This document shows, in pieces, positions 3,867-24,822 of a stretch of DNA of 64,000 nt. The position numbers and the translations under genes were made by a program. The first letter of the stretch is position 1. Each line of letters opens with the position of its first letter. The stretch is from positions 310,001-374,000 of the forward strand of contig NZ_LNCI01000002.1 in NCBI RefSeq assembly GCF_001509585.1. The letters run 5' to 3'. The notes under the pieces were generated by a model. It did not search any database, was not told the origin of the DNA, and was given only the letters and a program-made list of their open reading frames with translations. This stretch comes from Tropicimonas marinistellae. Its GTDB lineage: Bacteria; Pseudomonadota; Alphaproteobacteria; Rhodobacterales; Rhodobacteraceae.

Positions 3867-4264
3867 CAGTGGCGGTGCCGACTGAACAAGGTACTCGTGA
3901 ATATCAACGGTGAACGAGATTACCTTCAGCGAGCGGTCGACCACTGAGGCGAAACTCTGGAAGGTAGGCGACAAGGGTACGCGGTCGGCAAGTTGTCTTG
4001 GGTTTCATGAAATAACTACGCAGGCGTGCGGCCATCGGAAGGATTTCTGACCGACTTGCTCCTTTACAATAGCGCGGTTTTGAAGACGACCGACGCCTCG
4101 CTGACGCAAGAAGCAGACCAATGCTCGAACAACCGGGCGGCGAAATAACACTCACCGTTTCGACGACAGGAGAGGGCGATGCAACGCTTCCGGCGGAAGC
4201 GAAGTACACAGCATTTGCCTCCGTCCACGCGGTTGCCCTCGACCATTTGAGTCCGGCGCGGCAG
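3867..4264 (+). pseudogene. IS6-family transposase relic A (decayed)
   Basis: Reading one + frame from 3867 gives an almost gapless match to the middle and C-terminal part of IS6-family transposases. INGERDYLQRAVDH stands for the family stretch of the form INGERHYLWRAVDH, then RPSEGFLTDLLLYNSAVLK for the second catalytic Asp region (RPE...TDxLxxYxAAxK), then CSNNRA, then SPFRRQERAMQRFRR for the PFRRRERAMLRFRR region. The frame is broken by stops at 3945, about 4008 and 4146, and a frameshift near 4200 is needed to reach FASVHAVALDHL, the equivalent of FASVHASVHNHF. The catalytic Glu after NNRA is lost. It is an ancient, non-functional copy lying just downstream (on the other strand) of the TetR gene. 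Similarity is judged from memory of the family. Confidence 0.8.
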
Positions 4265-4317
4265 GAGGGGCAGGCTCACTGTCCATTCAGAGACCGATAA
4301 CCTTCGACCGGTGAGCA

Positions 4318-5013
4318 TCACGCCAAGACGGATGTCAGAACGGCGTGAACAACTTGCTCCCGCAGGTCACCCTGGGCTTTGTCCGTGAACAGCTCTTCGC
4401 CGAATATGATCGAGAAGGTCGGGCGGTTCGACACGTTAAAGAAGCACATGGCGCTGATCTGCCAGTGAAGCACCAAGGGTGACACATCTTTCCTGAATTC
4501 ACCCGTGCCGATTCCTGCCTCACAGATGCGTGCTAGCTGTTCGATGGCCGTCGTGCTCGATTCGCTGAGCGTTTCCATGGCTCGCATGTGTCTGCCGTCA
4601 TGAATGTTCTCGATCATGACAAGGCGAATGAAGTCAGCGTTGTTGCGGTGGTGGTCGAATGTGAACCGGACCAGCCTACGGAGCGCCTCGGTGGGTGGTA
4701 ATCCATTGAGATCCAGTTCGGCCTCACCTTTGCGAACGCTCCTGTAAGCATCCTCAAGAGCGGCTCGGTACAGGCCTTCCTTGTCGCCGAAGTAGTAGAA
4801 GATCATCCTCTTCGAGGTCTGGATACGGTTGGCAATATCTTGAATCCGCGCCCCGGCTAACCCGTTTTCCGCAAATTCTGCCTTGGCGGCGCGCAAGATG
4901 TCTGCGCGCACGGCCTTCGGATCTTGCTTCCAGGACCGAACCTTTTTTTCGGAGTCGTTTCTCTCGCCGTCCATGACTTCCGTTTCCCATGCTGAGGCGC
5001 GGTTGTCCAGCAT
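4318..5013 (-). CDS. TetR/AcrR-family transcriptional regulator
   Basis: A 231-residue TetR-type repressor. The helix-turn-helix domain spans about residues 38-85, with AEFAENGLAGARIQDIA and the recognition helix ending in TSKRMIFYYFGDKEGLY. The C-terminal ligand domain is of usual length. It is divergent from the dehydrogenase/TRAP operon, which it likely controls; two 18-bp direct repeats fill the gap between them. The ATG at 5013 abuts repeat 1 and has no clear ribosome site, so initiation at the ATG at 4974 (MDGERND) is possible and would put repeat 1 in the leader. The ligand is unknown; an intermediate of the neighbouring pathway is the likely choice. Confidence 0.92.
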   Translation of the reverse strand: MLDNRASAWETEVMDGERNDSEKKVRSWKQDPKAVRADILRAAKAEFAENGLAGARIQDIANRIQTSKRMIFYYFGDKEGLYRAALEDAYRSVRKGEAELDLNGLPPTEALRRLVRFTFDHHRNNADFIRLVMIENIHDGRHMRAMETLSESSTTAIEQLARICEAGIGTGEFRKDVSPLVLHWQISAMCFFNVSNRPTFSIIFGEELFTDKAQGDLREQVVHAVLTSVLA

Positions 5014-5062
5014 TTAACCATGCGGTACATTTCGGTTGACCAAATTAACCACGCGGTCCATT
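5014..5062. promoter_or_regulatory. Two direct-repeat operator sites, probably for the TetR regulator
   Basis: TTAACCATGCGGTACATT at 5014-5031 is repeated as TTAACCACGCGGTCCATT at 5045-5062, with 16 of 18 positions equal and a 31-bp period, about three helical turns. Each copy contains the short dyad ACC-N4-GGT. The pair fills the gap between the divergent TetR gene and the catabolic operon, where an autoregulating repressor should bind. The direct repeat is seen in the sequence; binding is inferred. Confidence 0.7.
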
Positions 5063-5108
5063 GTCGGCGAAAGCGAATCGCGGGACGGCAGGGGAGGAGC
5101 ATCCTGAA

Positions 5109-6011
5109 ATGTCGGTTCAGTCTGTCATCGACGGCGGCACGGATATCCGGGTCGGGTTGATCGGTCGCGGGATCACTCGGTCTCGCACGCCGGCCATGCA
5201 TATGGCGGAAGCCAGAGCGCAGGGAATGACATGCGCCTACAGGCTGTTGGACATGGACGATGATGCGTTCGCGGGAAGAACACTCGCGTCGATGCTCGAA
5301 TGGGTCGAAAGCGAAGGCTATTGCGGCGTCAACGTCACGTATCCGTTCAAGATCGAAGTCATTCCTTTGCTGGATGGTTTGTCAGCGAATGCTTCCGCCA
5401 TCGGCGCCGTGAATACAGTCGTGTTCAGGAACGGCACGCGAACCGGTCACAACACAGATCTGTGGGGATTTGCCGAGGGCTTCCGTCGTGAGTTTGGCGC
5501 CGGTCCACACCGGCACGTCTTGTTGCTTGGTGCGGGCGGAGCGGGCGTTGCGGTCGCGCATGCTCTGGTTGACTGTGGCGTCCAGCGCATTTCGATCTTC
5601 GATCTCGATTCCGACAGGGCCGAAGCGCTCGCGATACAGGTGGCAAACAACCGTGCGGACGTTGATGCGATGGCGGTCGCCGACCTGGCGGGTCTCGCCG
5701 CACAAGACGCTCCGGAAGGGATCGTGAACGCGACGCCTGTTGGGATGGCGAAGCTGCCCGGATCGGCTTTTCCCTTGGACTTGCTGACGCCTCGGATGTG
5801 GGTCGCTGACATCGTCTATTTCCCGTTGGAGACAGAGTTGCTTCGCGGAGCTAGGTCCCGGGGGTGTCGCACTCTCGGCGGCACCGGAATGGCCGTGTTT
5901 CAAGCCGTTCGCGCATTTCAGCTCTTCACAGGGCATCCCGCCGATCCGAAGCGGATGAAGGCGACCTTCGATGCCTTTGACCTGAAAGCAAAAGATCAAC
6001 CGAAAAACTGA
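5109..6011 (+). CDS. Shikimate/quinate dehydrogenase family protein (AroE-like)
   Basis: A 300-residue member of the AroE/YdiB/QsuD family that oxidises or reduces shikimate- or quinate-like cyclic polyol acids with NAD(P). The substrate domain shows SRTPAMH near the N-terminus, the catalytic Lys in NVTYPFK and the Asp in GHNTDLWG. The Rossmann domain shows GAGGAGVAVAHAL. The YPFK variant of the Lys motif is more like catabolic dehydrogenases than housekeeping AroE (NVTxPxK). I chose ATG 5109 because GGGAGGAG lies about 10 bp upstream. It heads an operon with a TRAP transporter and ends with a 3-dehydroshikimate dehydratase-like gene, so a catabolic role (shikimate or quinate to 3-dehydro form) is favoured over aromatic amino acid synthesis. 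Confidence 0.88.
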   Translation: MSVQSVIDGGTDIRVGLIGRGITRSRTPAMHMAEARAQGMTCAYRLLDMDDDAFAGRTLASMLEWVESEGYCGVNVTYPFKIEVIPLLDGLSANASAIGAVNTVVFRNGTRTGHNTDLWGFAEGFRREFGAGPHRHVLLLGAGGAGVAVAHALVDCGVQRISIFDLDSDRAEALAIQVANNRADVDAMAVADLAGLAAQDAPEGIVNATPVGMAKLPGSAFPLDLLTPRMWVADIVYFPLETELLRGARSRGCRTLGGTGMAVFQAVRAFQLFTGHPADPKRMKATFDAFDLKAKDQPKN

Positions 6012-6032
6012 ACGCGAATAAGGGAGGACTCC

Positions 6033-7037: not shown

Positions 7038-7049
7038 TCCGTCTCTCCT

Positions 7050-7079
7050 GCCGGGGACACGCACCGTCTTGTCCCCGGC
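7050..7079 (+). promoter_or_regulatory. Intra-operon stem-loop after dctP-type gene
   Basis: GCCGGGGACA (7050-7059) pairs perfectly with TGTCCCCGGC (7070-7079) around a 10-base loop. It lies between the binding-protein gene and the DctQ gene and has no following T-run, so it is more likely an mRNA-stabilising or partial-attenuation hairpin than a full terminator. Confidence 0.75.
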
Positions 7080-7106
7080 GATTTCCACCCAGATAGCGGA
7101 ATACCC

Positions 7107-7643: not shown

Positions 7644-8914
7644 TCTATGCCATCCTTATCATCGGTCTGCTCATCGGCCTGCCCATCGCCATTGCGATCA
7701 TTGCCACGCTTCTGGTTTTCATGGCGACAGGCGAAGCTCCCTACACGATACGCATCGTGGCCACGGAGATGTTCCGCAGCCTGAACTCCTTTCCGCTGTT
7801 GGCCATTCCGCTGTTTGTTCTCGCCGGTGAGCTGATGAACGAGAGTGGCATCACAGGTCGCATCATTGCCTTCGCCAACGTTCTCGTCGGGCGCATGCGT
7901 GCGGGGCTTGCCATGGTCAACATCTGGGCGTCCGTGATCTTCGCGGGCCTGTCCGGTTCGGCCGTGGCGGATACGTCGGCGATTGGCCGGGTGTTTATCC
8001 CGGAAATGGAGAAGCACGGCTATGATCGGAGTTTCGCCGCGGCGCTGACGGCAGCCTCCTCGGTCATCGGCCCGATCATCCCGCCGTCGATCCCAGTGAT
8101 CATTTATGCGCTGATCGTCTCAGGTGTGTCGGTTCCGGCCCTGTTCCTCGCCGGGATCGTGCCCGGGCTCCTGCTCGCCCTGTTCCTGTCAGGCTACGTT
8201 CTTCTGACGGTCAAGGTCGATCACGTCGATCAGGCAATCGAGCTGTCGGCCAAGCCGGCTGGCGCGGCGCTTCTTGAAGGCATATTGCCACTATTGATGC
8301 CGGTGTTCGTCGTCGGTTCGATCCTGATTGGTGTCGTCACGCCAACCGAAGCCGCGTCCTTTGCCGTGGCCTATGCGTTGGTTCTCGGGATTTTCGTCTA
8401 TCGCAAGATCACCCTCTCGGCATTGCCCCGCATCTTCGCTGGCGCAATGAGGGACAGCTCGGTGATCCTGATCATCATCGCCGCTGTGGGCGCTGCCAAC
8501 TGGCTGCTTACCTACAACCGCGTGCCCAACATGCTGACCGACTGGGTGCTGGCAAATGTCGACGGCAAGACCACCTTCCTGATCGCGGTGATCCTGCTGT
8601 TTCTCTTTGTCGGGCTGTTTCTTGAGGGTATCGCCGCGATGCTGGTATTGGTGCCGATCCTGCATCCGATCGCCGTCTCGCTCGGGGTCGATCCAGTACA
8701 TTTCGGCATCCTGGTCATCTTCAACCTGATGATCGGGTTGATCACGCCGCCCTTGGGGCTCTGCCTCTTCGTGGCGGAAGGAATAGCCAATGTTGGCATG
8801 GTGCGGCTCACGCGCGCGATCCTTCCGTTCTTTTTTGTCGAGGTTTTGGTCCTCCTTATTCTAACATTCGTACCTGAAACCGTCATCTGGCTACCGCGCG
8901 TCATGGGGTTCTGA
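7640..8914 (+). CDS. TRAP transporter large permease (DctM family)
   Basis: A 424-residue, roughly 12-helix membrane protein, the sodium-coupled transport subunit. Family features include GLSGSAVADTSAIG in the first conserved segment and VIGPIIPPSIPVIIYA, and near the C-terminus FGILVIFNLMIGLITPPLGL, all typical of DctM. Length is normal. It shares 4 bp with the DctQ gene and its TGA overlaps a possible ATG of the next gene. Confidence 0.95.
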   Translation: MIYAILIIGLLIGLPIAIAIIATLLVFMATGEAPYTIRIVATEMFRSLNSFPLLAIPLFVLAGELMNESGITGRIIAFANVLVGRMRAGLAMVNIWASVIFAGLSGSAVADTSAIGRVFIPEMEKHGYDRSFAAALTAASSVIGPIIPPSIPVIIYALIVSGVSVPALFLAGIVPGLLLALFLSGYVLLTVKVDHVDQAIELSAKPAGAALLEGILPLLMPVFVVGSILIGVVTPTEAASFAVAYALVLGIFVYRKITLSALPRIFAGAMRDSSVILIIIAAVGAANWLLTYNRVPNMLTDWVLANVDGKTTFLIAVILLFLFVGLFLEGIAAMLVLVPILHPIAVSLGVDPVHFGILVIFNLMIGLITPPLGLCLFVAEGIANVGMVRLTRAILPFFFVEVLVLLILTFVPETVIWLPRVMGF

Positions 8915-8958
8915 TGTCCTGTACAACCGTCAATTCACCATCAACCTCGGAGGATACG

Positions 8959-9891
8959 ATGTTCGACCTGAGTGGCGCGGTCCTGATCGAGGACGAGTTT
9001 CTGCGCGACGGGTTGCAGAACGAGAAGCGCCTGTTTTCCATTGAGGAGAAACTCGGTTTCCTTACGGCACTGGAAACCGCCGGGGTTCAGCGGATCCAGG
9101 TCGGATCCTTCGTGCATCCGAAATGGGTGCCGCAAATGGCCGATACCGATGAACTGTTCGAACGGATCGAGCGGAAGCCCGGCATCGTGTACTCGGCGCT
9201 GGTCCTGAACAAGGCAGGTCTCGACCGGGCGCTGTCTGTCGGCGCGCAACACCTGTCAATTTCGGTGTCGGCCTCCGAGACCCATTCGCGCAAGAACACG
9301 AACCGGAGTGTCGACGAGGGCCGGGCCGCTATTGCCCCCACGATTGAAAAGGCGCTCGCAGAGGGGGTGGCGGTGCGCGCCGGTATCCAGTCGGCACTCG
9401 GCTGCGGTTTCGAAGGGAAGGTGGATCCTGCCAAGGTGCTGGAAATCGCGCGCGATTTCGCGGCCTTGGGCGTGCAGGAAATCAACATCGCCGATACCGC
9501 CGGGCTCGCCAATCCGCGGCAGGTTTTCGAACTCTGCAAGCGGCTACAGGGCGAACTCGGAGAACATGTGAAACTTTCGCTTCATCTGCACGACACCCGT
9601 GGCCTCGGTTTGGCCAACATGTTCGCCGGTCTGCAAGCCGGTGTGCGGATATTCGATGCTGCACTTGGTGGGCTGGGTGGCTGCCCGTTCGTCCCCAAGG
9701 CCACCGGCAATATCGCAACGGAAGACGCTGCGTTTGCCTGCGAGCAAGTCGGGCTGTCCACGGGTATTGACTGGGAAGCCATGCGCGCCCCCGTTGCTAC
9801 AGCCGAGCATCTTCTGGCGCGCGCTCTGCCCGCCAGGGTGAGCCACGTTCCGTCGCCGCCATGGAAATCCAGCACGGGAGATGCAGAATGA
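8959..9891 (+). CDS. Hydroxymethylglutaryl-CoA lyase family protein
   Basis: A 310-residue TIM-barrel enzyme of the HMG-CoA lyase/isopropylmalate synthase-like group. Seen are the catalytic and metal motif LRDGLQNE near the N-terminus, the His pair in LHLHDTRG, and GLGGCPF with the loop Cys that is diagnostic for HMG-CoA lyases. Such enzymes carry out retro-Claisen cleavage of 3-hydroxyacyl-CoA acids. The start ATG 8959 is preceded by GGAGGATACG; an alternative ATG at 8914 overlaps the previous stop. In this operon there is no HMG-CoA synthase, reductase or leucine-degradation gene, so the natural substrate is probably another branched hydroxyacyl-CoA. It is not a known part of shikimate breakdown. 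Confidence 0.88.
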   Translation: MFDLSGAVLIEDEFLRDGLQNEKRLFSIEEKLGFLTALETAGVQRIQVGSFVHPKWVPQMADTDELFERIERKPGIVYSALVLNKAGLDRALSVGAQHLSISVSASETHSRKNTNRSVDEGRAAIAPTIEKALAEGVAVRAGIQSALGCGFEGKVDPAKVLEIARDFAALGVQEINIADTAGLANPRQVFELCKRLQGELGEHVKLSLHLHDTRGLGLANMFAGLQAGVRIFDAALGGLGGCPFVPKATGNIATEDAAFACEQVGLSTGIDWEAMRAPVATAEHLLARALPARVSHVPSPPWKSSTGDAE

Positions 9892-10706
9892 GCCACAAGT
9901 ATTCACTGTCGTATCTGACGGTGCCCGGCGTCACTCCACCCGAGCAGACCTATATTGCCGCGAGAACAGGCTTTGAATGCGTCAGCTATCGGCTGTTCCA
10001 CCTCGGTGTGCCCGGTGAGCCGGACATTGACCCCACGTCTCCGCAGATCATCCGGGAAACGAAACGGGCGCTGGACGAAACCGGATTGGAATGCTTCGAC
10101 ATCGAGCTGATGCGTATCGTTCGCGGGCTCGATCCGACACAGTTCCTGCCCGCATTCGAAGCCGGCGCAGAACTCGGTGCTCGCCATGTCATCTGCTCGG
10201 CCTGGACCGATGTTCGCAACGACCGAAAGTACATCGTGGAGACCTTCGCAGAGATCTGCGACCTCGCCGCGCCCTTTGGGTTGACCGTCAACCTGGAGTT
10301 TCCAGCCTTCTCAAGGCTGACAACGCTGGATGAGGTGATCGACATCCTCGACCGCACCGGGCGGCGCAACCAGGGCGTCCTGGTCGATACGCTCTACATG
10401 CATTTCAACAAGGAGCCGCTTCTTGCTCTGGAGCGCGTGCCCTCCGAATGGATCAACTTCCTGCACATCTGTGACGCCGAGGATCTCGCATTCACCAAGG
10501 AGGAGATGATCCACATCGCCCGCGACGCCCGCCTGTATCCGGGCGAGGGGGCGATCGACTTTTGGTCGGTCAATTACCTGTTTCCGAACCTTCCGCTCTC
10601 GATCGAACTGCCACACGCAGCGCGCATGGCGGAACTCGGTCCAGAGCAACATGCAAAGAACTGTATCGACGCGGCCCGCTCCGTCTTTGACGCGACGGGG
10701 CTGTAA
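9888..10706 (+). CDS. Sugar phosphate isomerase/epimerase-like TIM-barrel protein
   Basis: A 272-residue xylose-isomerase-like TIM barrel (AP endonuclease family 2 fold). Likely metal ligands are Glu in NLEFPAF, Asp in LVDTLYMHF, His in NFLHICDAED and Glu in SIELPHAA, the Glu-Asp-His-Glu set of IolE/IolI/dehydroshikimate-dehydratase-like enzymes. The start overlaps the previous stop (ATGA), so it is translationally coupled to the lyase gene. The fold performs isomerisation, epimerisation or dehydration of polyols and oxo-cyclitols; the exact reaction is unknown. Confidence 0.85.
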   Translation: MSHKYSLSYLTVPGVTPPEQTYIAARTGFECVSYRLFHLGVPGEPDIDPTSPQIIRETKRALDETGLECFDIELMRIVRGLDPTQFLPAFEAGAELGARHVICSAWTDVRNDRKYIVETFAEICDLAAPFGLTVNLEFPAFSRLTTLDEVIDILDRTGRRNQGVLVDTLYMHFNKEPLLALERVPSEWINFLHICDAEDLAFTKEEMIHIARDARLYPGEGAIDFWSVNYLFPNLPLSIELPHAARMAELGPEQHAKNCIDAARSVFDATGL

Positions 10707-10753
10707 ACCAATATCCGGCCCGAGGCCGACATACCCATCCCCGGAGGACCCAG

Positions 10754-12160
10754 ATGGCCCGAGAGATTACCCAGGAAGAAATCGAAACCGTCGACGCGAT
10801 GCTCGCCCGTGCCCGCAAGGCGATGGAGGAGATCAAGGACTACGACCAGGCCCAGGTGGACCGGCTTGCCCAGGCACTTGGATGGAATTGCGGCAACGAG
10901 ACGACTTTCGTTCGCATCGCGCAGATGGGCGTTGACGAGAGCGGTATCGGCGACCGCGCGGGCCGTGCCGGCAAGCGCTTCAAGGTGCTGGGCGTGCTGC
11001 GTGACGCGTTGCGGCAGAAGTCCGTGGGCGTGATCGAAGATGACCCGGTCAAGGGCTTGACCAAGATCGCCAAGCCGGCCGGAGTGATTGCCTCGCTGAT
11101 CCCGACGACGAACCCCGAGCTGACGCCGCCGGTGACCGGCATCTACGCGATCAAGTGCAAGGACGCGGTGATCTTCTCGCCGCACCCGCGGGCCAAGGCC
11201 ACGACCTTCGAGATGGTCCGCGTGATGCGCGCGACACTGAAGAAGCTGGGCGCGCCGGAGGATATGTTCCAGTGCGTCGAGAAGCCCTCGATCCCGATGA
11301 CCAACTACTTGATGGCACAATGCGACCTGACGCTCGCCACCGGTGGCAAGCCGATGGTGCATGCCGCTTATTCCTCGGGAAAGCCGGCCTACGGCGTCGG
11401 CGCCGGTAACTCGACGATGGTGATCGATGAGACAGCCGACATCAAGGAGGCGGCGATGAACAGCCGTATCTCCAAGATGTCGGATTTCGGCTCCGGCTGC
11501 TCGGCCGATGGCAACCTCATCATCGTTGACCAGGTCTATGAGCAGATGAAGGAGTCGCTCATCGCGGAGGGTGGATACCTTTGTTCGCCCGAGGAGAAGG
11601 AACTGCTGGCAAAGGCACTCTGGAAGGAGGACGGCTCGCGGCGGATCGAGACCGTGGCGGTCTCGGCAAAGACCATCGCCGATTTCGCTGGCTTCGACCT
11701 GCCCGACGACCGCAAGTTCCTGATGGTCGAGCAGGATCGGATCGGTAAGGATCATCCCTTCAGCCGCGAGAAGCTCTCGGTGACAATGGCGCTCTATCGT
11801 GCTGCGGATTTCGACGATGCCCTGCGCATGGTGCGCGAGATATACGAGGTCGGCGGCAAGGGTCATTCCTGCGGTATCTATTCCTTCGACGAAGAACGCA
11901 TCCTGCGTCACGCCGAGAACGCGCCGGTGAGCCGGGTGATGGTCCGCCAGCCGCAGTCCAAGGCCAACGCGGGCAGCTTCGAGAACGGCATGCCGATGAC
12001 GTCGAGCCTCGGCTGCGGCATCTGGGGCGGCAACATCACCAACGAGAATGTCTCGCTCAAGCACTACATGAACGTCACCTGGGTCGCCCGTCCGATCCCG
12101 ATTGACCGGCCCTCCGACGAGGAATTGTTCGGTGAGTTCTACAACACGGAGGTGATGTAA
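10754..12160 (+). CDS. CoA-acylating aldehyde dehydrogenase (SauS/EutE/SucD-like)
   Basis: A 468-residue NAD(P)-dependent aldehyde dehydrogenase of the CoA-acylating group. Indicators are its short length, the early IPTTNPELTP motif and the nucleophile region FGSGCSADGN. The closest described subgroup I can recall is sulfoacetaldehyde dehydrogenase SauS and succinate semialdehyde dehydrogenase SucD. The stop shares one base with the start of the ThDP enzyme, so the two are likely paired: the ThDP enzyme would make an aldehyde from a 2-oxo acid and this enzyme would convert it to acyl-CoA. A GGAGG-type ribosome site precedes the ATG. Substrate unknown. Confidence 0.88.
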   Translation: MAREITQEEIETVDAMLARARKAMEEIKDYDQAQVDRLAQALGWNCGNETTFVRIAQMGVDESGIGDRAGRAGKRFKVLGVLRDALRQKSVGVIEDDPVKGLTKIAKPAGVIASLIPTTNPELTPPVTGIYAIKCKDAVIFSPHPRAKATTFEMVRVMRATLKKLGAPEDMFQCVEKPSIPMTNYLMAQCDLTLATGGKPMVHAAYSSGKPAYGVGAGNSTMVIDETADIKEAAMNSRISKMSDFGSGCSADGNLIIVDQVYEQMKESLIAEGGYLCSPEEKELLAKALWKEDGSRRIETVAVSAKTIADFAGFDLPDDRKFLMVEQDRIGKDHPFSREKLSVTMALYRAADFDDALRMVREIYEVGGKGHSCGIYSFDEERILRHAENAPVSRVMVRQPQSKANAGSFENGMPMTSSLGCGIWGGNITNENVSLKHYMNVTWVARPIPIDRPSDEELFGEFYNTEVM

Positions 12161-13956: not shown

Positions 13957-13984
13957 CGCTTCCCTCCCTACGAAGGAACTTGCC

Positions 13985-15880: not shown

Positions 15881-16173
15881 AGCTATTTCGAAACGCACTA
15901 AGCGTTATCGGCTAAGGCCCGACCGAGAACCGTGCGAGATGCCAATGGGTTATCGTCACGGTGTCTTGTGCCAAAACCACCACGTTCCGTCGCAGTGTTT
16001 CATTCTGCCAAATCGTGCGACTTGATGAATTGAGCGGCGTGGGTTGTTTCCAGTTGGTGGCGTTGGTGGAAGCGACCGCCGAAGGCACCTGCGAGGGTGA
16101 TGTCTGCGGAGCTTGGTTCCAGCCGGGCAGGGCGCTCTCGTGGCCGTCTCGGGTAAATCAACGCAATCCGTGC
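15881..16173. other. Intergenic stretch before IS6 relic B
   Basis: About 290 bp downstream of the catabolic operon with no recognisable gene. The frame of the relic is open leftward to 15961 but the encoded residues upstream of 16174 do not resemble the transposase. No convincing terminator was seen after the operon. Confidence 0.5.
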
Positions 16174-16788
16174 ATGCGCTTCAAGTCGAGCCCTGAGATC
16201 ACAGGCCTTTCGAGTATGCTCTATGTGCGGCTTTCTCCTGCGCTCAGGAAGTGTGAGGACCTTCTGCACGGGCGTGGCATAGAGGTCAGCCAAGCGTTGC
16301 TTCCGGTGGCATTTTAGGCCCGTTGTTCGCCTTTGATATCCGCGACAAACATGCGGAGGTTTTGGGTTTCGCGCCACAACCTATGGAGCGCTGTCGACCA
16401 TGAGAATGCGGTCCTGAAAAGCTGCGTGACGAAGGTGCGCGACAGGAAGTCGGCAGTGAATTTCACAAAGAAAAGACTGTGCCGGTACGGTCGCCCTCGA
16501 TCACGTGTCACTGCACCTCTTCGACGCCGTGGAGTGGCGTTGAAGGCGATTGCTGCGTCGGCGCGACGGCAAAGCGGCCGCCGGCTGAACAATCGGGCGG
16601 AGATTTCGCACCTGCATTCCTGGTGACGAGCGCGAGCAATGCGACGTTGTTGGCGGATGCGGACCTTGCAAATGTTCGCCGGCGTCAACGCCTCGGTCGT
16701 TGATTATCGCAACGCAGAGCGCAACTCATGACCGAGAGCCGTCTTCGAGAAGAACGGTGCTGCCGCTCTCGCCGAATGGCGCGGTCGT
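16174..16788 (+). pseudogene. IS6-family transposase relic B (decayed, internal deletion)
   Basis: A single + frame from ATG 16174 matches IS6-family transposases almost end to end. MRFKSSPEITG to CEDLLHGRGIEVSQ is the N-terminal helix-turn-helix region. LWSAVDHENAVLKSCVTK, NFTKKRLCRYGRPRS and GRRLNNRAEISHL follow the family order (WRAVDHEGEVLESFVTK, KKALKRHGRPE, GRWANNRAENSHL). Then RARAMRRCWRMRTLQMFAG, NASVVDYRNAER and AAALAEWRGR match the C-terminus. Stops at 16315, 16624 and 16729 interrupt the frame, and roughly 30 codons around the first catalytic Asp are missing between about 16290 and 16350. It is therefore a dead copy, older than any assembly error. It lies between the dehydratase fusion gene and the ABC importer. 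No clear terminal inverted repeats were found. Confidence 0.88.
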
Positions 16789-16936
16789 GGCGCGCCATAT
16801 GGCACAGCGACTTTGCTCTTGAAGGGACCAGGCCAAGTCCGGCTGACAGCGCAACCTGACCTGTTCGCTCGGGCCATGGCCAGGCATCAAATCGCTCTGA
16901 ATCGATTGGAAGGCTCCCGCCACCGTCCTGTCGGCT

Positions 16937-17914
16937 TTAGTGCCGGAATTCCCGCTCTGCCATCGGAGTTGCCTTGACCTGCTGACCGGGTTCGAAGGTT
17001 CGGCTCCCCTCGACGCGCGCGACCAGCGGCCCAAGGTCTGGAACCTCCAGATGCACGATCGTATCGGCGCCGAGCCGCTCGACGTGACGAACCCGCCCCG
17101 TCCACTGACCCTCGGCGTCGGAGATTACCACGTGCTCTGGGCGGATGCCGTAGGTCGCGCAGCCCATCGCTTCGGCGACCTTGCCCTCGTAGAGGTTCAT
17201 CTTGGGAGAGCCGATGAAGCCCGCGACAAAGGGCGTGGCCGGACGTTCGTAAAGGTCCATAGGGCTGCCCACCTGTTCGATCACGCCGCCATTCAGCACC
17301 ACGATCTTATCGGCCATTGTCATCGCCTCGACCTGATCATGGGTGACATAGATCATCGTCGTGCCGAGGTTCGCGTGCAGGTCGGTCAATTCGATGCGCA
17401 TCTGCGAGCGCAGCGCGGCGTCGAGATTCGACAGCGGTTCGTCAAACAGGAACACCTTTGGGTTGCGAACAATGGAGCGGCCGATGGCAACGCGCTGGCG
17501 CTGGCCGCCGGACAGTTCCTTGGGCTTGCGGTCGAGCAGGGGGCCGAGTTGCAGGATTTCGGCCGTTTCCTCCACGCGGCGCTTGATCTCGGGCTTGGGC
17601 GTTCGCGCGAGGCTCAGCCCGAAGCCGATATTGTCGCGCACCGTCAGATGCGGGTAGAGGGCGTAGCTCTGGAACACCATCGCGATGCCGCGCTTCGACG
17701 GCTCGGCGTTGCTCACGTCCTTCCCGTCGATCTCGATAGTGCCGGAGGTCTGTTCCTCCAACCCGGAGATCATGCGCAGCAGGGTCGACTTTCCGCATCC
17801 CGAGGGGCCAACGAAGACGCAGAACTCGCCGGACTCTATCGTGAGGTCCACGCCCTTGATAACCTCGACGGCGCCGAAGCTCTTCTTGACGTTCTTGAGG
17901 ACGACTTGTGCCAT
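16937..17914 (-). CDS. ugpC: ABC sugar transporter ATP-binding protein (UgpC/MalK type)
   Basis: A 325-residue ATPase of the CUT1 carbohydrate importer class. Walker A is GPSGCGKST, the signature is [15 protein letters not shown], Walker B is [13 protein letters not shown], and the switch His is in [10 protein letters not shown]. The C-terminal TOBE-like regulatory region (about 240-325) includes GIRPEHV and [10 protein letters not shown]. It is the last gene of the leftward importer operon, 3 bp after the preceding permease. It energises uptake of the sugar bound by the operon's binding protein. Confidence 0.96.
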
Positions 17915-17917
17915 TGG

Positions 17918-18742
17918 TTATCCTTTTACTCCGCCTGCGGTCATACCGGCGACGATCTGGCGGTTGAAGAAGATGAAAACGAGCAGCGGCGGGATGGTGA
18001 CCAGCAGGATGTTCATGAACAGCAGGTTCAACTGGCTGACGAACTGGCTCTGGAAGTTGTAGAGGGTCAGCTGCACCGTCACGTTTTCCTTGCCCGGCAG
18101 ATAATAGAGCGGGTGGGTGAAATCGTTGAAGATGGTGATCGACTGGACCACGATCACGGTCACGGTGACGGGTTTCATCAGCGGCAGGATCACCCGGAAG
18201 AAGACCTGCCAGGGCTTTGCACCGTCGACGATCGCGGCTTCGTCAAGATCGCGCGGGATAGTGGAAACGAAGGCGCGGAACAACAGAATGCAGAAGCCAA
18301 GGCCATAGGCGACCTGGATCAGGATCATGCCGTGCAGTGTCTTGAACAAGCCCAGCCCCTGAAGCACCCAGATCGTCGGCACAACGGCGGGCGGCATCAT
18401 CAACCCGGCAAGCACGAAGCCGTAGATGACCTTGTTCCAGCCGGATTTGCGGCGTTGAAGCACGTAGCCGACCATCGCCCCGAATATCACCAGCAGGGTG
18501 ATTGCCCCCACGGTGATGACGATGGAATTGAAATAGGCGAGCAGCAACTGGTAGTCGCGCGCCTGCACGACCTCGACGAGGTTTTGCCAGAAGCGCCATT
18601 CCTGCGGCAGGGCAAAACTGAGCCGGGCAGTTTCCGCCGCCGATTTCGAGGCGTTGATGAAGACGAAGATGAAGGGGATCACGAAGATCACGAAGGCGCA
18701 GGCGAGCGAGATCAGCCCGGTGATGAGTTGGCGGCGGGTCAC
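17918..18742 (-). CDS. ABC sugar transporter permease (MalG type)
   Basis: A 274-residue six-helix membrane protein with the importer EAA loop as DLDEAAIVDGAKPWQVFFRV. The C-terminal end is typical for MalG-type subunits. Its start overlaps the stop of the upstream permease by 4 bp. Together with that subunit it forms the translocation pore. Confidence 0.95.
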   Translation of the reverse strand: MTRRQLITGLISLACAFVIFVIPFIFVFINASKSAAETARLSFALPQEWRFWQNLVEVVQARDYQLLLAYFNSIVITVGAITLLVIFGAMVGYVLQRRKSGWNKVIYGFVLAGLMMPPAVVPTIWVLQGLGLFKTLHGMILIQVAYGLGFCILLFRAFVSTIPRDLDEAAIVDGAKPWQVFFRVILPLMKPVTVTVIVVQSITIFNDFTHPLYYLPGKENVTVQLTLYNFQSQFVSQLNLLFMNILLVTIPPLLVFIFFNRQIVAGMTAGGVKG

Positions 18743-19599
18743 TGGTCCACTTCCTTTCTGTAGAAGCGAAATGCGAGCGGCACCACGAGGACTGCAATCA
18801 GCAGAAACAGGATGACGTTGCCGGCGGTGGACAGGCCGTAGAAACCGGCCTGGTACTGTTTGTAGACGACACTGGCGAGCACGTCGGAGGCAAAGCCGGG
18901 GCCGCCGCGGGTCATCGCCCAGATGAGGTCGAACAGGCGCAGGCCGCCAATCAGCGACAGGATGATGACGGTGGTCGTAGCCGGGCGGACGAGCGGGACG
19001 GTCACGCGCCAGAATTGCTGCAGGCGGGTGGCGCCGTCGATGCGGGCGGCCTCGTAGTAATCGGGGCTGATCGAGGCGAGGCCGGCGATGTAGATGAGCG
19101 TGGCAAGGCCGACACCGCGCCAGATATCCACCATGGCCACCGAGAATAACGCCAGCTTGGGGTTGGTCAGCCAGCCCGGGCCGGGGATTCCGACGGCACC
19201 GAGGGCGAGATTGATCACGCCTTCGGTCGGGTGCATGAGTTCGGTGAAGAGCAGCCCGACGCCGATGGTCGAGACGAGTACCGGGAAAAAGACAATCGAG
19301 CGCTGGAGGCCTTGCGCGAACATGCCGGAGGTCAGCAACACCGCGAGCAGCAGGCCCAGCACGGTTTTGGCGCCGGAGGTCAGGACCGCGAAGAAAAGCG
19401 TGTTGACGACGCCGCGTAGCAGGAACGGCTCAGAGAAGAACTGCTGGTAATTCTCGAACCCTATGAAACTGGCGTCGAAGAGGTCCCAGTTGGTGAGGCT
19501 GAACCAGAAGGAAGCGATGGTCGGCACGAGGAACAGGACCGTGAAGATCACGGCGGCGGGCAGCACGAACCAATAGGGGTAGGGGGATCTTTTTCTCAT
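18739..19599 (-). CDS. ABC sugar transporter permease (MalF type)
   Basis: A 286-residue membrane protein with six predicted helices and the EAA loop as DYYEAARIDGATRLQQFWRV. The N-terminus (PYWFVLPAAVIFTVLFLVPT) is the usual first helix of MalF-type CUT1 permeases. It lies 71 bp after the binding-protein gene, and that gap contains a strong hairpin. Confidence 0.95.
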   Translation of the reverse strand: MRKRSPYPYWFVLPAAVIFTVLFLVPTIASFWFSLTNWDLFDASFIGFENYQQFFSEPFLLRGVVNTLFFAVLTSGAKTVLGLLLAVLLTSGMFAQGLQRSIVFFPVLVSTIGVGLLFTELMHPTEGVINLALGAVGIPGPGWLTNPKLALFSVAMVDIWRGVGLATLIYIAGLASISPDYYEAARIDGATRLQQFWRVTVPLVRPATTTVIILSLIGGLRLFDLIWAMTRGGPGFASDVLASVVYKQYQAGFYGLSTAGNVILFLLIAVLVVPLAFRFYRKEVDQ

Positions 19600-19625
19600 T
19601 GGCGCATTCCCGGCAGGTGAGGTGC

Positions 19626-19648
19626 GCCCGCGCTGAGACAGCGCGGGC
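19626..19648 (-). promoter_or_regulatory. Stem-loop between sugar-binding protein and permease genes
   Basis: GCCCGCGCTG (19626-19635) and CAGCGCGGGC (19639-19648) form a perfect 10-bp stem with a 3-base loop. No T-run follows on the minus strand. The position directly after a binding-protein gene suggests protection of the upstream mRNA segment or partial attenuation. Confidence 0.75.
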
Positions 19649-19670
19649 AGGCGCGAACCGGTGGGAGGCC

Positions 19671-20951
19671 TTACCAGTTCGGCAAGCGGAGTTGCTTGGC
19701 CTGTTTCTCCACGTCGCGGTCATAGAGTTCGGCCGCGCTTTGTGCGTCGCGGATGCCCGATCCGACCTCGACGGTGAGCTGTTCCAGCGCCGGGCCCTTC
19801 ACCGGCGACAGGAACTCGAGCGCCGGCGCGGTGCGGCCGTCCTGCTCGAAATAGGGCATCATGTCACCAACCGCGGTTGGCACGTCGTCGGGCAGGGTGC
19901 AGCCCTTGATGAGCAGCGGACCCGAAGCGCCGACGGCTTCGATGATGATGTCGCAGGCGTCCGGGCTGGCCACGAAGTTCACGAAATCCTTGGCGATATC
20001 GGTATGGTCGCCGCCCTTCGGCACGTAGTAGGTGCTGGGCATCCAAACCGTCAGGCCGTTCATTTCCGCGCTGTCTCCCGGTTGGGCAAAGAAACCGACA
20101 TCGTTGAGTTGCTCGGGATGGTTCTGCTGGATGCCGGCAATCGAGAAAGTCAGCATTGGGTAGTGAACACCGGAGCCGGTAGCGACCATGCGCAAGCCGT
20201 CGTTGTAGTTCGCGGCACCAAAGTCGGCATTGAAGTAACCGGCCTCAAAGGCAGACTGCAGCCGGTCGAACCCCTTCTTTGCCGCCGGAGTCGTGGCGTA
20301 TTTCGACTCGTTGTTCGTGTATTGTGCCGCAAAGTCAGGCTCTTCGGCCTGCACGTTAAAGTAATCGGCCAGCACGAAGAGCTGCGAGGTCCAGGTATCG
20401 CGGTAGGTCTGGATGATCGGCGCCTTGTCCGTCTCGCTGGCGATTTGGGCGTTGTTGGCCATGAACTCTTCCCATGTGGTGGGAATTTCGAGACCAAGCT
20501 GCTCATAGGTCGGCACGTGATAGAGGATGCCGCCGCCCATGGCGGCCTGATGCGGCACACCATAGACATTCCCGTCGCCGTCAGAGACGGTCTGGGTGTA
20601 GCTTTCGAGGAGGTTGCCGAAGTTCGGAATGTCGTTGATTGGCTCCAACGTGCGCGACGGGCGCAAGGCTTGCAGTAGCGCGCCGGAGTTGTAGTTGAAG
20701 ACATCGGCCATCTCGCCCGTTGCGAGGCGCGTCTTGACGATATTGTCGCCCTCGGCGCCGCCGGCACGGGCTTCGACCTCCCAGGTCACGCCGGGGTTCT
20801 TCGCCGTGTAGGCGGCGGTCAGCGCCTCTGTGATGGCGACCGTGTCGGGGTTGTTATCGACCAAGATCGTCATTTCCTGGGCGGCAAGCGCTCCGCCAAA
20901 CACGGCGAACACGGCCGTCAGGGCGGTCGTCTGGAACAATCTGTCTTTCAT
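19671..20951 (-). CDS. ABC sugar transporter substrate-binding protein
   Basis: A 426-residue extracellular-solute-binding protein of the CUT1 family. A signal peptide of about 23 residues ends at ALAAQ. The mature start (MTILVDNNPDTVAITEALTAAY) and the middle segment with PTTWEEFMANNAQI are typical of family 1 solute-binding proteins. It sits between the rhamnosidase gene and the permeases. Its ligand is probably a rhamnose-containing oligosaccharide or glycoside because the hydrolase next to it is cytoplasmic. Confidence 0.94.
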   Translation of the reverse strand: MKDRLFQTTALTAVFAVFGGALAAQEMTILVDNNPDTVAITEALTAAYTAKNPGVTWEVEARAGGAEGDNIVKTRLATGEMADVFNYNSGALLQALRPSRTLEPINDIPNFGNLLESYTQTVSDGDGNVYGVPHQAAMGGGILYHVPTYEQLGLEIPTTWEEFMANNAQIASETDKAPIIQTYRDTWTSQLFVLADYFNVQAEEPDFAAQYTNNESKYATTPAAKKGFDRLQSAFEAGYFNADFGAANYNDGLRMVATGSGVHYPMLTFSIAGIQQNHPEQLNDVGFFAQPGDSAEMNGLTVWMPSTYYVPKGGDHTDIAKDFVNFVASPDACDIIIEAVGASGPLLIKGCTLPDDVPTAVGDMMPYFEQDGRTAPALEFLSPVKGPALEQLTVEVGSGIRDAQSAAELYDRDVEKQAKQLRLPNW

Positions 20952-20987
20952 GGTTTCCTCCCAAAGAAGTCCGGCGCAATGCCGGGG

Positions 20988-23327
20988 CTAGGTTTCGTTC
21001 CCGAACTGGAGATCGAACTCGATAACGTGGTGGCCCGCTGGCAGTGTCAGGCCCTCCGGCGATACCTCGACTTGGGCGCCGTCGCGCGTCAGCCCGGAGA
21101 AGATCCCCGGCGGAATCTCCCCCGCAACGCCTTCCGGTAGCGTCACGCTGTAGACCACACGCTCCCCCTCGACGCTCCATCCCGCCTCGATCCGGCCGTG
21201 GCGGCAGTCATGCCAGATGGAGACATGGCCAAGCTCAGGCAGCACCGTCGGGCAGAGGCGCACCTTGTCGAAGCCGGGGGCATCCGCGCTTGGCGCGACG
21301 CCAGCCACTTCCTCGAACAGCCACTGGCAGACCGCGCCGTAGGCATAGTGATTGTAGCTGTTCATGTCGGGGTCGTAGATCGTGCCGTCCGGCCCGAGTG
21401 CATCCCAGCGTTCCCAGATCGTCGTCGCACCCTGTTCCACCTGGTAGAGCCAGCCGGGTACGTTTCGGTTCAAGAAAACCCTCTCGGCCAGGTCGGCCAT
21501 GCCGAGCTTTGTCAGTGCGGGCAGTAGGGCGGGCGTGCCAATGAAACCGGTGCCAATAAGGTAGTCCGCATCCTCGATCACACAGCGGAAATAGGCCTTT
21601 GCCGCTTCGTAGTGCTGGACAGGAACGAGGTCGTAGAGGAACGCCAGCGCATAGGAAGTCTGGTCGTTATGGGCCAGCCGGCCGCTGGTGCTGAAATACT
21701 CATGCGCAAAGGCGGCCCGGATCGCCGTCGCGCGGTCGTCCAGCCGTGCAGCCTCCGTCGTCTCGCCCAGCACAGTCGCGATGCGGGCGGCGAGTTCGGT
21801 GGATATGAAATGGTAGAGCGTGGCCGCGCAATCGTCCGCGATGGTCGGGCGCGGCTTGCGGTTGTCGCCCACCGGTTGCAGCCAATCGCCAAAGCTGAAC
21901 CCGTGTCCGCCCCAGACCGAGCTGGGCTGGATGATCGGCCCGTCCGAGAGACCCCAGAGGTAGTCCACCCATTTCACCATCGCCGGGAAACACTCCCGCA
22001 AGACTTGCGTGTCGCCGTAGTGAAGATACAGCTGCCACGGCATTACCGTGATGACATCGCCCCAGCCGGTCGAACCGGCCCAGTCGCCATGGAACTTCTC
22101 CGGATGCAATCGTGTCGGGTCAGGGGAGAAATGCGGAACTGCACCGTTCTCGCGCTGGTCGTGCATGACGTCACGCAGGTACTTCTTCAGGAACAACTCG
22201 CTATCCGCGAGCCAGCAAGCCGTGCCGGCGAAAACCTGAGCATCGCCGGTCCAGCCCAGTCGTTCGTCGCGCTGCGGGCAATCGGTGGGGATTTCGATGA
22301 AATTGGCGCGTTGCGACCAGATCGTATTCTGGACCAGCCGGTTGACGGCCTCCACGCCACATTCGAACCCGGCAGCCAGTTCGGGGACAGAGGAGATAGG
22401 TACGGAGACGATCTGCGTGATTTCGGCCGTGCCCCCAATCGTCACCCGCGCATAGCGGTAGCCCATGAAGGTGAAATGCGGCTCGAATGTCTCCTCGCCA
22501 TCTCCCTTCAGAGTGTAATGCAGCGCCCCTCGGGCGGAGCGGTAGTTGCGGTTGTCGAAGGACCGGTTCGGTCCCAGGACCTCGGAGTGTTCGATGAAGA
22601 CGGTCGCGCCCGGTTCGCCGCGCACGGAGAAACGCACGAAACCTCCGGCATTCTGACCGAAATCGTAGATCGTCCGGCCGTCGTCATCCTGCCATTTCTC
22701 AATTGGCTCCAACGGTGCCAGCGCCTTGACCCCGGGTGCTTCCTGCGCGACGAGCAAGACCTTGTCGAACTCCAGAACCTCGACACCTTCCGTCTCTTCG
22801 AACCGGTCGAGGCGCGCGTCGTAGTCTTCGCCGTGATAGATGCCGGAACGTGTTACCGGGAGGAGGCCGCTCTTCCACTCTGCGCCGGTCGCGCAGATCA
22901 CCGCTCCGTCGCAGGTGATCTCGGCAATTGCCGCGATCCGGTCTCCCCAGCAATTCTCGATCCGCGATTCCTCCCACATGATCGGTGAGCGGTACCAGCC
23001 GTCGCCCAGCCAGATATCGATGCGGTTCTCGCCTGCCACCACGAGGTCGGAGACGTCGTAGCTCTGATACGCAATGCGATCATCATAACAGGTCCACCCC
23101 GGCGTCAGCAGGTCGTCACCGACACGGACACCGTTGATGAAGGCGCGATAGAGGCCGAGTGCGGAGACATGGAGCACGGGGCGGGTGCCCTCGGGCACCA
23201 CGAATACCGTTGACACGAAACTTGCCCGCTCGCCCTGACCGGCATCTGTCACGGGGGCGATCATTTCGGCGTGCCAATCGCGGCTGCCCCTGCCAGACAC
23301 GGCTCCCAGGCTCGTTTTCTGAAGCAT
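20988..23327 (-). CDS. Alpha-L-rhamnosidase (GH78 family)
   Basis: A 779-residue glycoside hydrolase that removes terminal L-rhamnose. An N-terminal beta-sandwich region (about 1-330) contains the motif AFINGVRVGDDLLTPGW. The catalytic (alpha/alpha)6 barrel starts near 340 and shows the hallmark IPTDCPQRDERLGWTGDAQ, whose acidic residues are catalytic, and later WERWDALGPDGT. A C-terminal beta domain closes the protein. There is no signal peptide, so it acts in the cytoplasm on imported glycosides. I chose ATG 23327 because GGAGGA lies about 9 bp upstream; an ATG at 23354 is less supported. It is the first gene of the leftward importer operon. No rhamnose-catabolic gene lies in the cassette, so released rhamnose must be handled elsewhere. 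Confidence 0.93.
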   Translation of the reverse strand: MLQKTSLGAVSGRGSRDWHAEMIAPVTDAGQGERASFVSTVFVVPEGTRPVLHVSALGLYRAFINGVRVGDDLLTPGWTCYDDRIAYQSYDVSDLVVAGENRIDIWLGDGWYRSPIMWEESRIENCWGDRIAAIAEITCDGAVICATGAEWKSGLLPVTRSGIYHGEDYDARLDRFEETEGVEVLEFDKVLLVAQEAPGVKALAPLEPIEKWQDDDGRTIYDFGQNAGGFVRFSVRGEPGATVFIEHSEVLGPNRSFDNRNYRSARGALHYTLKGDGEETFEPHFTFMGYRYARVTIGGTAEITQIVSVPISSVPELAAGFECGVEAVNRLVQNTIWSQRANFIEIPTDCPQRDERLGWTGDAQVFAGTACWLADSELFLKKYLRDVMHDQRENGAVPHFSPDPTRLHPEKFHGDWAGSTGWGDVITVMPWQLYLHYGDTQVLRECFPAMVKWVDYLWGLSDGPIIQPSSVWGGHGFSFGDWLQPVGDNRKPRPTIADDCAATLYHFISTELAARIATVLGETTEAARLDDRATAIRAAFAHEYFSTSGRLAHNDQTSYALAFLYDLVPVQHYEAAKAYFRCVIEDADYLIGTGFIGTPALLPALTKLGMADLAERVFLNRNVPGWLYQVEQGATTIWERWDALGPDGTIYDPDMNSYNHYAYGAVCQWLFEEVAGVAPSADAPGFDKVRLCPTVLPELGHVSIWHDCRHGRIEAGWSVEGERVVYSVTLPEGVAGEIPPGIFSGLTRDGAQVEVSPEGLTLPAGHHVIEFDLQFGNET

Positions 23328-23390
23328 GTGCAATCCTCCTCCCCAGGCGGTCATGTCCGGCTCGGTGCGGCTCGAATCGATTTGTGCACC

Positions 23391-23404
23391 GTTCTACGTA
23401 GAAC
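23391..23404. promoter_or_regulatory. LacI-type operator palindrome
   Basis: GTTCTACGTAGAAC is a perfect 14-bp palindrome located between the divergent rhamnosidase operon and the LacI gene. Size, perfect symmetry and position fit an operator for the neighbouring LacI-family repressor. Binding is inferred. Confidence 0.75.
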
Positions 23405-23478
23405 ATTATACAAAACGGATTGCGTTACAAGGGAGGATGTGAAAATGCTTGTGTCAGGGAAATTGAGGAGAGCGATCC

Positions 23479-24495
23479 TTGTCCGAACGCAGCCCTTCCA
23501 TGGGAGGGAAGGTTACCATTCGAACGGTTGCAGAAGACGCCGGTGTATCCGTCGCGGCGGTATCCAAGGTCTTGCGCAACGCCTATGGCGTCAGCGACCA
23601 GTTGCGGGCGAAGGTCGAGGCGTCGATCAAGAAACTCGGCTACCGACCCAGCACCGCTGCACGCGGCATGCGCGGACGGACATATGCTATCGGTGTCCTG
23701 CTGGTGAACCTCTCGAACCCGTTCCTGCCGATTGTCGTCGGCGGTGTGCAGACGGCCTTGAGATTGGCCAATTACAAGATGCTGGTCGGGATCAGCGAGG
23801 CCCAGGCGCATCTGGAACAATCCCTGATCGAGTCCATGATCGACATGCGGATCGATGGGCTGGTGCTGGTGGCGCCGCGACTCACCGGCGAATCCCTGTC
23901 GCGGTTCGCGGACCAGGTGCCAATGGTCGTAATCGGGCATCACGAGAACTCTGCGGAAAGATTCGACACCGTGAATTCCAACGACCGGCTCGGGGCGAGG
24001 CTGGCAGTGGAGGCGTTGATTGCCGCCGGGCATTCCGATGTTCACATGGTCAGCCTTCCGCATACGAACGGGGAATTCGAGGTCTTCCACAAGCGAGAGG
24101 CCGGGTATCTGGATGCAATGCGGTCGGCAGGCCTCGAAAACAGGAGCCGGATCTGCAATTTGCCGGAGGAGGCGGACCCGGAGGATATTTTGCGGCACCT
24201 ATTGAGCGCTCCCGTTCCGCCGACCGCCGTCTTCTGCTGGAGCGATCTACACGGTGTCGGCCTTCTGAATGCCGCAAAGGTAAAGGGGATTGACGTTCCC
24301 GGTCGTCTCGCGATTGCGGGATATGACAACACGCCAGAGGCAGCCTTGCCGCTCATTGGTCTGACAAGCATCGATCAATGCGGCGGCGAACTTGGCAAGC
24401 TTTCCGCCGCGACACTACTCAGCAGGATCGCGGGGCGGACCGGGGCGAAACACCATATCGTTGATCCGGTGCTGGTGCAGCGGACGAGCAGTTGA
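23479..24495 (+). CDS. LacI-family transcriptional regulator
   Basis: A 338-residue repressor. The N-terminal helix-turn-helix and hinge are visible as VTIRTVAEDAGVSVAAVSKV followed by YRPSTAARGMRG. The sugar-binding domain begins with AIGVLLVNLSNPFLP and shows PTAVFCWSDLHGVG and AGYDNTPEA. A TTG at 23479 has GAGGAG about 8 bp upstream and is used here; an ATG at 23500 (MGGKVT) is an alternative. It is divergent from the rhamnosidase/ABC operon and probably represses it until a rhamnosyl sugar is present. A decayed IS6 relic begins within about 30 bp of its stop codon. Confidence 0.94.
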   Translation: MSERSPSMGGKVTIRTVAEDAGVSVAAVSKVLRNAYGVSDQLRAKVEASIKKLGYRPSTAARGMRGRTYAIGVLLVNLSNPFLPIVVGGVQTALRLANYKMLVGISEAQAHLEQSLIESMIDMRIDGLVLVAPRLTGESLSRFADQVPMVVIGHHENSAERFDTVNSNDRLGARLAVEALIAAGHSDVHMVSLPHTNGEFEVFHKREAGYLDAMRSAGLENRSRICNLPEEADPEDILRHLLSAPVPPTAVFCWSDLHGVGLLNAAKVKGIDVPGRLAIAGYDNTPEAALPLIGLTSIDQCGGELGKLSAATLLSRIAGRTGAKHHIVDPVLVQRTSS

Positions 24496-24521
24496 ACGGG
24501 GCCAACCAGAGGCCCCAAAGG

Positions 24522-24745
24522 ACGTATCGGTCTGCAGTCAACGAGGTCGAACCTAGCCGACAGATACCCGCCTTCCAGTGCTGTCGAACATCCTGTCCAC
24601 ACTTTTGCTGTGGAACGTCGAGGACCTGCTGTCCGCCTCCGTTCCTGTATCGGCCCGAAGCATTTTCAACCAAGAGCGCGACCGAAACCCGCTGCGGAGT
24701 TGCCGGCTCGTCCGTGCGACCGCTCTCGCCGAGTGGCGCGGTCTC
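24522..24745 (+). pseudogene. IS6-family transposase relic C (C-terminal remnant)
   Basis: Two + frames separated by a frameshift give C-terminal IS6 transposase fragments. RTYRSAVNEVEPSRQ matches the segment RSYRAAM..G..DRQ. Further on SVPVSARSIFNQERDRNP matches SVHASVHNHFNQERH, and ATALAEWRGL matches the conserved AALAEWRGL end with the family spacing. The DNA over the last motif resembles relic B. Only about the last third of the gene is recognisable. It lies immediately downstream of the LacI gene and has the same orientation as relics A and B. Confidence 0.75.
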
Positions 24746-24822
24746 CATGCGGTATTCGGGGACAGCCACGCGTTCCGATCTGAGACCGGTTCGAAATTGT
24801 CCGCGATCCCACTCCCTACCGC

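Follow-up and report, generated by a model that had tools for sequence, protein, structure and literature searches.

According to the accounts in PMC7986276 and PMC4894685, intermolecular cointegration by elements of the insertion sequence (IS) family IS6 and insertion of translocatable units (TUs) leave the IS copies as direct repeats, with intramolecular events leading to deletion or inversion, and what is known of such module building comes mainly from drug-resistance regions of recent date; in a bench precedent, two added TUs were bounded by three direct copies of IS26 (PMC4894685). Here we describe the same geometry, old and decayed and lying between catabolic blocks of a marine bacterium, in a 64,000-bp stretch of the Tropicimonas marinistellae genome (the window), where three IS6-type relics, named A, B and C, part two gene cassettes, and where the long-term products of such events could be studied. 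As in the accretion of TUs by IS26 reported in PMC4894685, three direct IS copies separate two modules and the middle copy is shared; unlike in that precedent, the modules are catabolic cassettes of 8-12 kb, the copies are all decayed, A and B are not one element, and the locus is known from sequence alone. The layout also resembles the pseudo-compound transposons of the IS6 review (PMC7986276), in that direct IS6 copies flank passenger genes, and differs from them in that the end copies of cassette 1 come from different founders, so that the same IS6 does not stand on both sides. We tentatively favor a history of stepwise accretion beside resident IS6 copies, at a probability somewhat short of an even chance. 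A study of metaldehyde degradation, going by its title, reportedly deals with how mobile elements disseminate a catabolic pathway, with "IS6 family" among its terms; unlike that spread, the Tropicimonas events would be old, judging from the relics.

The window covers positions 310001-374000 of contig C12 (638,774 bp) of a 5.42-Mb genome, labeled G000, and was compared with eight congener genomes, G001-G008; relic coordinates are window positions unless prefixed by a contig. IS6 copies were located with an 818-bp DNA model aligned from 12 Tropicimonas copies and their flanks (11 from congeners, one from C12), in which the element borders were set by the drop in conservation at both ends of the alignment. 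The element carries a single gene, for a transposase of 238 amino acids, and fits the family range of about 700-890 bp given in PMC7986276; the size of the transposase also agrees with that review. An intact congener copy (L010) and a copy on C12 itself (L002) score 197.8 and 161.5 bits with the NCBIfam IS6 transposase model NF033587, whose cut-off is 125. The terminal inverted repeats are short, with GG at both tips in 12/12 copies and agreement at 9-12 of 14 positions in 11 copies and at 5 of 14 in L002; they are thus imperfect, as against the "generally perfect" repeats of the IS6 review (PMC7986276). A six-frame scan of the T. marinistellae genome with Pfam DDE_Tnp_IS240 (PF13610) returned relics A and B, other C12 fragments, and two nearly intact copies on the same contig (C12:233558 and C12:456241; 81% and 84% identity to the element consensus). 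The matches in the window are as follows.

3794-4320, plus strand: IS6 relic A (nhmmer for 3794-4255, Pfam E 2e-8; tail 4256-4320 aligned by eye)
16096-16853, plus strand: IS6 relic B (nhmmer E 2e-32 and 7e-84; Pfam E 4e-11)
24517-24811, plus strand: IS6 relic C (nhmmer E 1e-6 and 7e-14; envelopes 24517-24811)
56175-56289, plus strand: possible fourth IS6 relic, weak (nhmmer E 5e-5 at 56190-56274, model 19-104)

All three relics are degenerate, each in its own way. Relic A keeps the left end and leader (3794-3860, model 1-67, E 4e-6), has lost model positions 68-282, and continues directly to position 681 (3861-4255, model 283-681, E 7e-55), with three stop codons inside its Pfam match. Relic B, matched at 16096-16366 and 16372-16851, is nearly full length, lacking about 58 bp (model 279-336) and bearing frameshifts as well as a stop codon, the one found within its Pfam match; it shares 71% DNA identity with an IS6 copy of G001. 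In relic C the left end is gone, the right end is degenerate, and an internal deletion of model positions 172-637 joins 24540-24631 (model 79-171) to 24630-24803 (model 638-810). Identity to the element consensus is 67-75% for A, 68-71% for B and 62-67% for C. A first-pass annotation of this DNA had proposed three decayed IS6-type transposase genes, all on the plus strand, and would have dropped the idea had two or more loci lacked an IS6 match. The genus DNA model matches all three, and the reversed controls are empty (no match better than E 2.4 in the reversed window and loci, or than E 8.6 in reversed contig C12), so both the identity and the decay of the relics are borne out. Their positions had been placed correctly, with the spans of A and B drawn too short; of the profile search it had called for, A and B are the yield, C being absent from the Pfam match list of the six-frame scan and matched by the DNA model.

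The common direction of the relics extends far beyond the window. With the DNA model, C12 carries 14 distinct IS6 places within 228 kb (233-461 kb), and the direct orientation of all copies in an array that TU accretion calls for is seen throughout: 14/14 lie on the plus strand (11/11 at E <= 1e-5 and 9/9 at E <= 1e-10, three of the 14 places being weak), the single minus-strand match being weak and overlapping a plus-strand one. Across the genus, where regions around most, not all, of the listed IS6 matches were scanned with the same model, at least 100 IS6 places were found on 44 contigs of six genomes (G000, G001, G002, G003, G007 and G008). Contigs with several places are one-way in 22 of 24 cases, and neighboring pairs have the same orientation in 52 cases and opposite orientations in 4 (43:2 at E <= 1e-10; 31:4 without C12 and G001:C7). 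The counts of same to opposite pairs per genome are 14:0 in G000, 10:0 in G001, 10:0 in G002, 15:2 in G003, 1:0 in G007 and 2:2 in G008; G004, G005 and G006 hold few or no IS6 matches of this type and add nothing to the pair counts. Among the matches listed, G003:C105 is the only contig with both strands represented.

The IS6 copies compared from elsewhere do not follow this pattern. Nine plasmid records served as a yardstick, searched with the Pfam model and chosen for IS6 copy number, which makes them a non-random sample (Ruegeria, Sulfitobacter, Pseudorhodobacter, Octadecabacter, Mesorhizobium, two from Lactococcus, Paraburkholderia and Rhodococcus). Their 114 matches over the cut-off form 41 same and 55 opposite pairs (48:56 when nine weaker matches are added), and the difference from the genus has a Fisher p of 1.4e-10 if non-independent pairs are treated as independent. 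Both orientations occur on four plasmids of Rhodobacterales whose IS6 copies are related (17 same and 22 opposite pairs). Chromosomes gave a thinner comparison, with IS6 matches in 8 of the 14 genomes searched and many only in GAI101, whose contig C6 has 4 same and 5 opposite pairs. Within the genus, control elements of the IS110 type (44 matches) and with rve domains (matches below the cut-off left out) give 9 same and 4 opposite pairs (p 0.036 against 52:4), too few for a strong control. Neither one-way IS6 arrays nor the IS elements of Tropicimonas are the subject of any paper that we found in the open-licence literature, and the one-way orientation in the genus is the part that a specialist would find surprising. 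Because neighboring IS6 places agree 52:4 in the six genomes, direct orientation is not specific to the two cassettes, and the weight that the earlier annotation had placed on it as evidence for their movement is not upheld.

The surroundings of the relics comprise the end of a paa region, the two cassettes, and a transporter gene of the major facilitator superfamily (MFS).

564-2594, plus strand: left flank, PaaZ (span from our own gene calls), end of the paa region
2609-3463, plus strand: left flank, PaaX-like regulator, end of the paa region that is syntenic with G008 and G007
4318-5013, minus strand: cassette 1, TetR-type regulator; relic A has its right end at the stop codon
5061-15880, plus strand: cassette 1, operon from quinate/shikimate dehydrogenase to QuiC
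16937-23354, minus strand: cassette 2, operon of alpha-L-rhamnosidase, substrate-binding protein, two sugar permeases and ATPase
23479-24495, plus strand: cassette 2, LacI-family regulator
24823-26115, minus strand: right flank, MFS transporter

By the gene calls of our own script (583 genes), all three relics sit in convergent 3'-3' gaps: A between PaaX and TetR, B between QuiC and the ATPase, and C between LacI and the MFS gene. The fit is close, the degenerate right end of A meeting the TetR stop codon and that of C lying some 11 bp away from the stop codon of the MFS gene. The pattern on which the first-pass annotation had built, with a single regulator and a single operon from one relic to the next, is confirmed; as evidence of transposition it is weak, because successive convergent gaps by definition enclose one leftward and one rightward block. 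By length, 60% of the genes in the IS6-bearing region of C12 lie on the plus strand.

Whether the relics descend from one element was addressed by counting departures from the consensus that two relics share with the same letter, set against 95% ranges from 400 simulations per case on 28 real founders. Relics A and B share 16 departures, below the 24-59 of simulated twins and within the 10-30 of different founders; A and B are not descended from one IS6 copy. Cassette 1 as a two-ended unit with identical IS6 ends is therefore rejected, and what remains for it is accretion beside an unrelated resident copy or independent insertion. For B and C, which also share 16, the ranges for twins (13-41) and for different founders (6-21) both cover the value.

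Cassette 1 looks, from its predicted products, like a system for quinate/shikimate-type catabolism. Its operon encodes a quinate/shikimate dehydrogenase, the tripartite ATP-independent periplasmic (TRAP) transporter components DctP/Q/M, a 3-hydroxy-3-methylglutaryl-CoA (HMG-CoA)-lyase-like protein, a sugar isomerase-like protein, an acylating aldehyde dehydrogenase, a thiamine diphosphate (ThDP) enzyme and a QuiC-type dehydroshikimate dehydratase. Together with TetR it recurs over 11.6 kb, collinear and at 77% DNA identity, in Aliiruegeria sabulilitoris (L039); G002 has the cassette without the TRAP genes, and G003, G004 and G006 have a 7-kb core with different upstream genes. In G002 and Aliiruegeria a urea-type ATP-binding cassette (ABC) transporter, yaaA and recQ come after the cassette; in T. 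marinistellae those ABC genes lie on C13 and recQ on C40 instead, and yaaA is unmatched among the matches listed for this genome. On its left side, similarity to relatives' TetR genes ceases at the TetR stop codon, that is, at the right end of relic A, and the paa genes beyond the relic are syntenic in G008, up to PaaX at the protein level, and in G007, up to PaaZ, so that synteny stops just left of relic A.

Cassette 2 has a different distribution. None was found among the matches listed for the eight congeners (33 candidates scored per genome), nor in G007 when this genome was searched singly. Its rhamnosidase is matched in 8 of 294 other genomes of the family, LacI adjoins the rhamnosidase in eight relatives' loci, and the gene order is identical on NZ_CP042263, a 382-kb plasmid of Qingshengfaniella alkalisoli, near which locus there is neither an MFS gene nor an IS6 match. 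The MFS transporter gene of the right flank occurs in three congeners (G002, G003 and G008) in other contexts. In the listed matches of 393 further genomes of the family, 11 show the rhamnosidase part, 42 the MFS part and none both, with the two best candidate places scored per genome, so that a distant second gene could be missed. Both cassettes occur as units in other contexts and look portable.

Segments shared between C12 and IS6-bearing contigs of congeners may bear signs of module movement elsewhere. The block C12:234236-242859 matches G001:C7:162124-170816, which has co-oriented IS6 copies at both ends; in the C12 copy, an IS6 stands 152 bp off the left end and a weak relic 1.3 kb off the right. 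Another shared block has the same direction with respect to IS6 in both genomes and is found on the other side of the first block in G001, and C12:396307-398140 matches G002:C190:10043-11879, 15 bp from an IS6. Overall, eight shared blocks on IS6-bearing contigs have the same orientation relative to IS6 and four the opposite one, a weak tendency in a count that omits repeated IS110 copies and whatever is shared with the mixed contig G003:C105. We considered, and set aside, the idea that relics of different species are positional orthologs; some positions match, and the sequence gives no confirmation.

In a history of stepwise accretion, A, B and C would be long-decayed IS6 insertions, at least A and B of separate origin, that form part of the one-way set of C12. 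A circle made up of a gene module and a single IS6, or else a cointegrate, would have inserted next to a resident IS6, and the reaction would have left the IS copies directly oriented, yielding two modules separated by three IS6 copies; the common direction of the three would then exist because insertion beside a resident IS6 leaves direct repeats. Units with a complete regulator and operon would have survived as their ends fell in 3'-3' gaps, and substitutions and internal deletions would subsequently have eroded the IS copies, with the genes retained. Carriage of the cassettes by IS6 is plausible, and we infer the order of events. The successive insertion of two IS6-borne modules put forward by the first-pass annotation draws support from the portability of the cassettes, from the stop of synteny left of A and from the lack of a listed co-occurrence of rhamnosidase and MFS parts. 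On the other side, cassette 1 is no two-ended unit, no IS6 was found beside the relatives' cassettes examined, and the comparison proposed there, with relatives lacking a cassette and broken at the relic, yielded no empty site among the relatives compared. A series of observations weighs against accretion. Convergent gaps, with 17.4% of intergenic bases, hold seven of the 14 C12 places (P 0.005; for two of these the gene calls are weak), an enrichment expected if insertions merely survive where they are harmless. Synteny in this part of C12 also breaks at places without relics; no IS6 was found at E <= 1e-3 in nine stretches of 15-20 kb from congeners with the core of cassette 1 or genes of the flanks; and 13 further loci gave a single match (E 1e-7), in that of T. 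sediminicola (L038) at 8.6 kb from the end with QuiC, seven of the 13 being rhamnosidase loci of about 5 kb that stop short of the far cassette end and L039 reaching only about 300 bp left of TetR. G008 by itself has as many opposite as same pairs. An 8-bp target duplication was sought at the ends of A, B and C and no matching 8-mers were found, an absence that about 30% decay makes uninformative. Finally, the G-rich strand carries the IS6 copies of 28 of 44 contigs (p 0.096; 26/44, p 0.29, with less sequence) and those of 12 of the 16 contigs with at least 60 kb scanned (p 0.077), a weak tendency compatible with a replication-direction bias.

The main alternative is that the cassettes came by other means and that single IS6 insertions followed later, the survivors being those in convergent gaps, where neither gene nor promoter is broken, and their common direction stemming from a replication-fork insertion bias or from the loss of inverted pairs. 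We give this alternative a considerable probability, under one half and only a little lower than that of accretion, whose fit is slightly better than that of a later, directionally biased insertion into safe gaps. Besides the gap enrichment and the lack of IS6 beside the relatives' cassettes examined, later insertion accommodates the different founders of A and B and the location of the relics on the G-rich plus strand of C12, whose GC skew stays positive for the first 600 kb apart from one 20-kb bin, and a replication-linked orientation bias is reported for several IS families in the account of PMC5371812. Against it, IS6 lay on the G-rich strand in nine of ten hand-picked contigs, yet the full 44-contig set is not significant; the C34 copy of T. 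marinistellae itself lies on the G-poor strand; and the four Rhodobacterales plasmids are mixed. Untargeted IS257 insertions in Escherichia coli, as tabulated in PMC6952201, occur in both orientations, 9 leading to 6 lagging by our own count from its table 2 and the positions of origin and terminus. The one-way tendency offers a direct test of joining to a resident copy versus replication direction. Compound (pseudo-compound) transposition, in which each cassette moved as a unit between two copies of the same IS6, would account for the direct repeats that flank each cassette and is a known activity of the family (as described in PMC7986276), but the A-B comparison falls below the twin range, and we consider it very improbable. 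Only a little less remote is vertical inheritance, in which the one-way set predates the species split and owes its direction to a small number of founding events, perhaps one, in an ancestral region common to the species. IS6 fragments do occur next to conserved blocks at matching positions and in the same relative orientation (C12:248534 with G003:C102:11907, and C12:233267 with G001:C7:170867), but the copies of a pair (66-68% identity) resemble each other no more than they do other copies, the blocks of G001 and C12 are ordered differently, and nothing corresponding to relics A-C was found in the nine congener regions carrying the same genes. Returning to accretion, a broader and rather doubtful extension of it is that the near-strict one-way rule within Tropicimonas contigs, relics included, which related IS6 copies elsewhere in Rhodobacterales do not obey, reflects an IS6 that spreads almost only by direct-orientation joining to a resident copy, with self-inversion suppressed; much of the variable chromosomal arm, both cassettes included, would then be a chain of accreted modules with fossil joints.

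Several side observations accompany these results. On C12 the sign of the GC skew changes near 600-620 kb, within the terminal region of about 600-638 kb, and may mark a replication terminus. In cassette 1, the HMG-CoA-lyase-like protein, the acylating aldehyde dehydrogenase and the ThDP enzyme (window 8914-13956) form a core that moves together with QuiC; the nearest model for the aldehyde dehydrogenase is the sulfoacetaldehyde dehydrogenase SauS, below its cut-off. Leaving aside the TRAP genes, which are missing from G002, the cassette-1 core and the ABC/yaaA/recQ region are 92-93% identical between L135 (G002:C153) and L039 of Aliiruegeria sabulilitoris; such identity across two genera could reflect either a recent transfer or a classification in need of revision. 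Among the IS elements themselves, IS110-type copies abut the ends of IS6 matches exactly (G003:C115:747 and 12088, G003:C92:13793 and G003:C102:20373), as if this element targeted the terminal region of IS6. IS6 copies are also cut off directly by co-oriented IS6 copies, at G001:C2:1238/1239, G003:C86:17754/17755, G002:C190:9209/9210 and G008:C18:13948/13949, and the truncation junction lies at model position 121 in two species.

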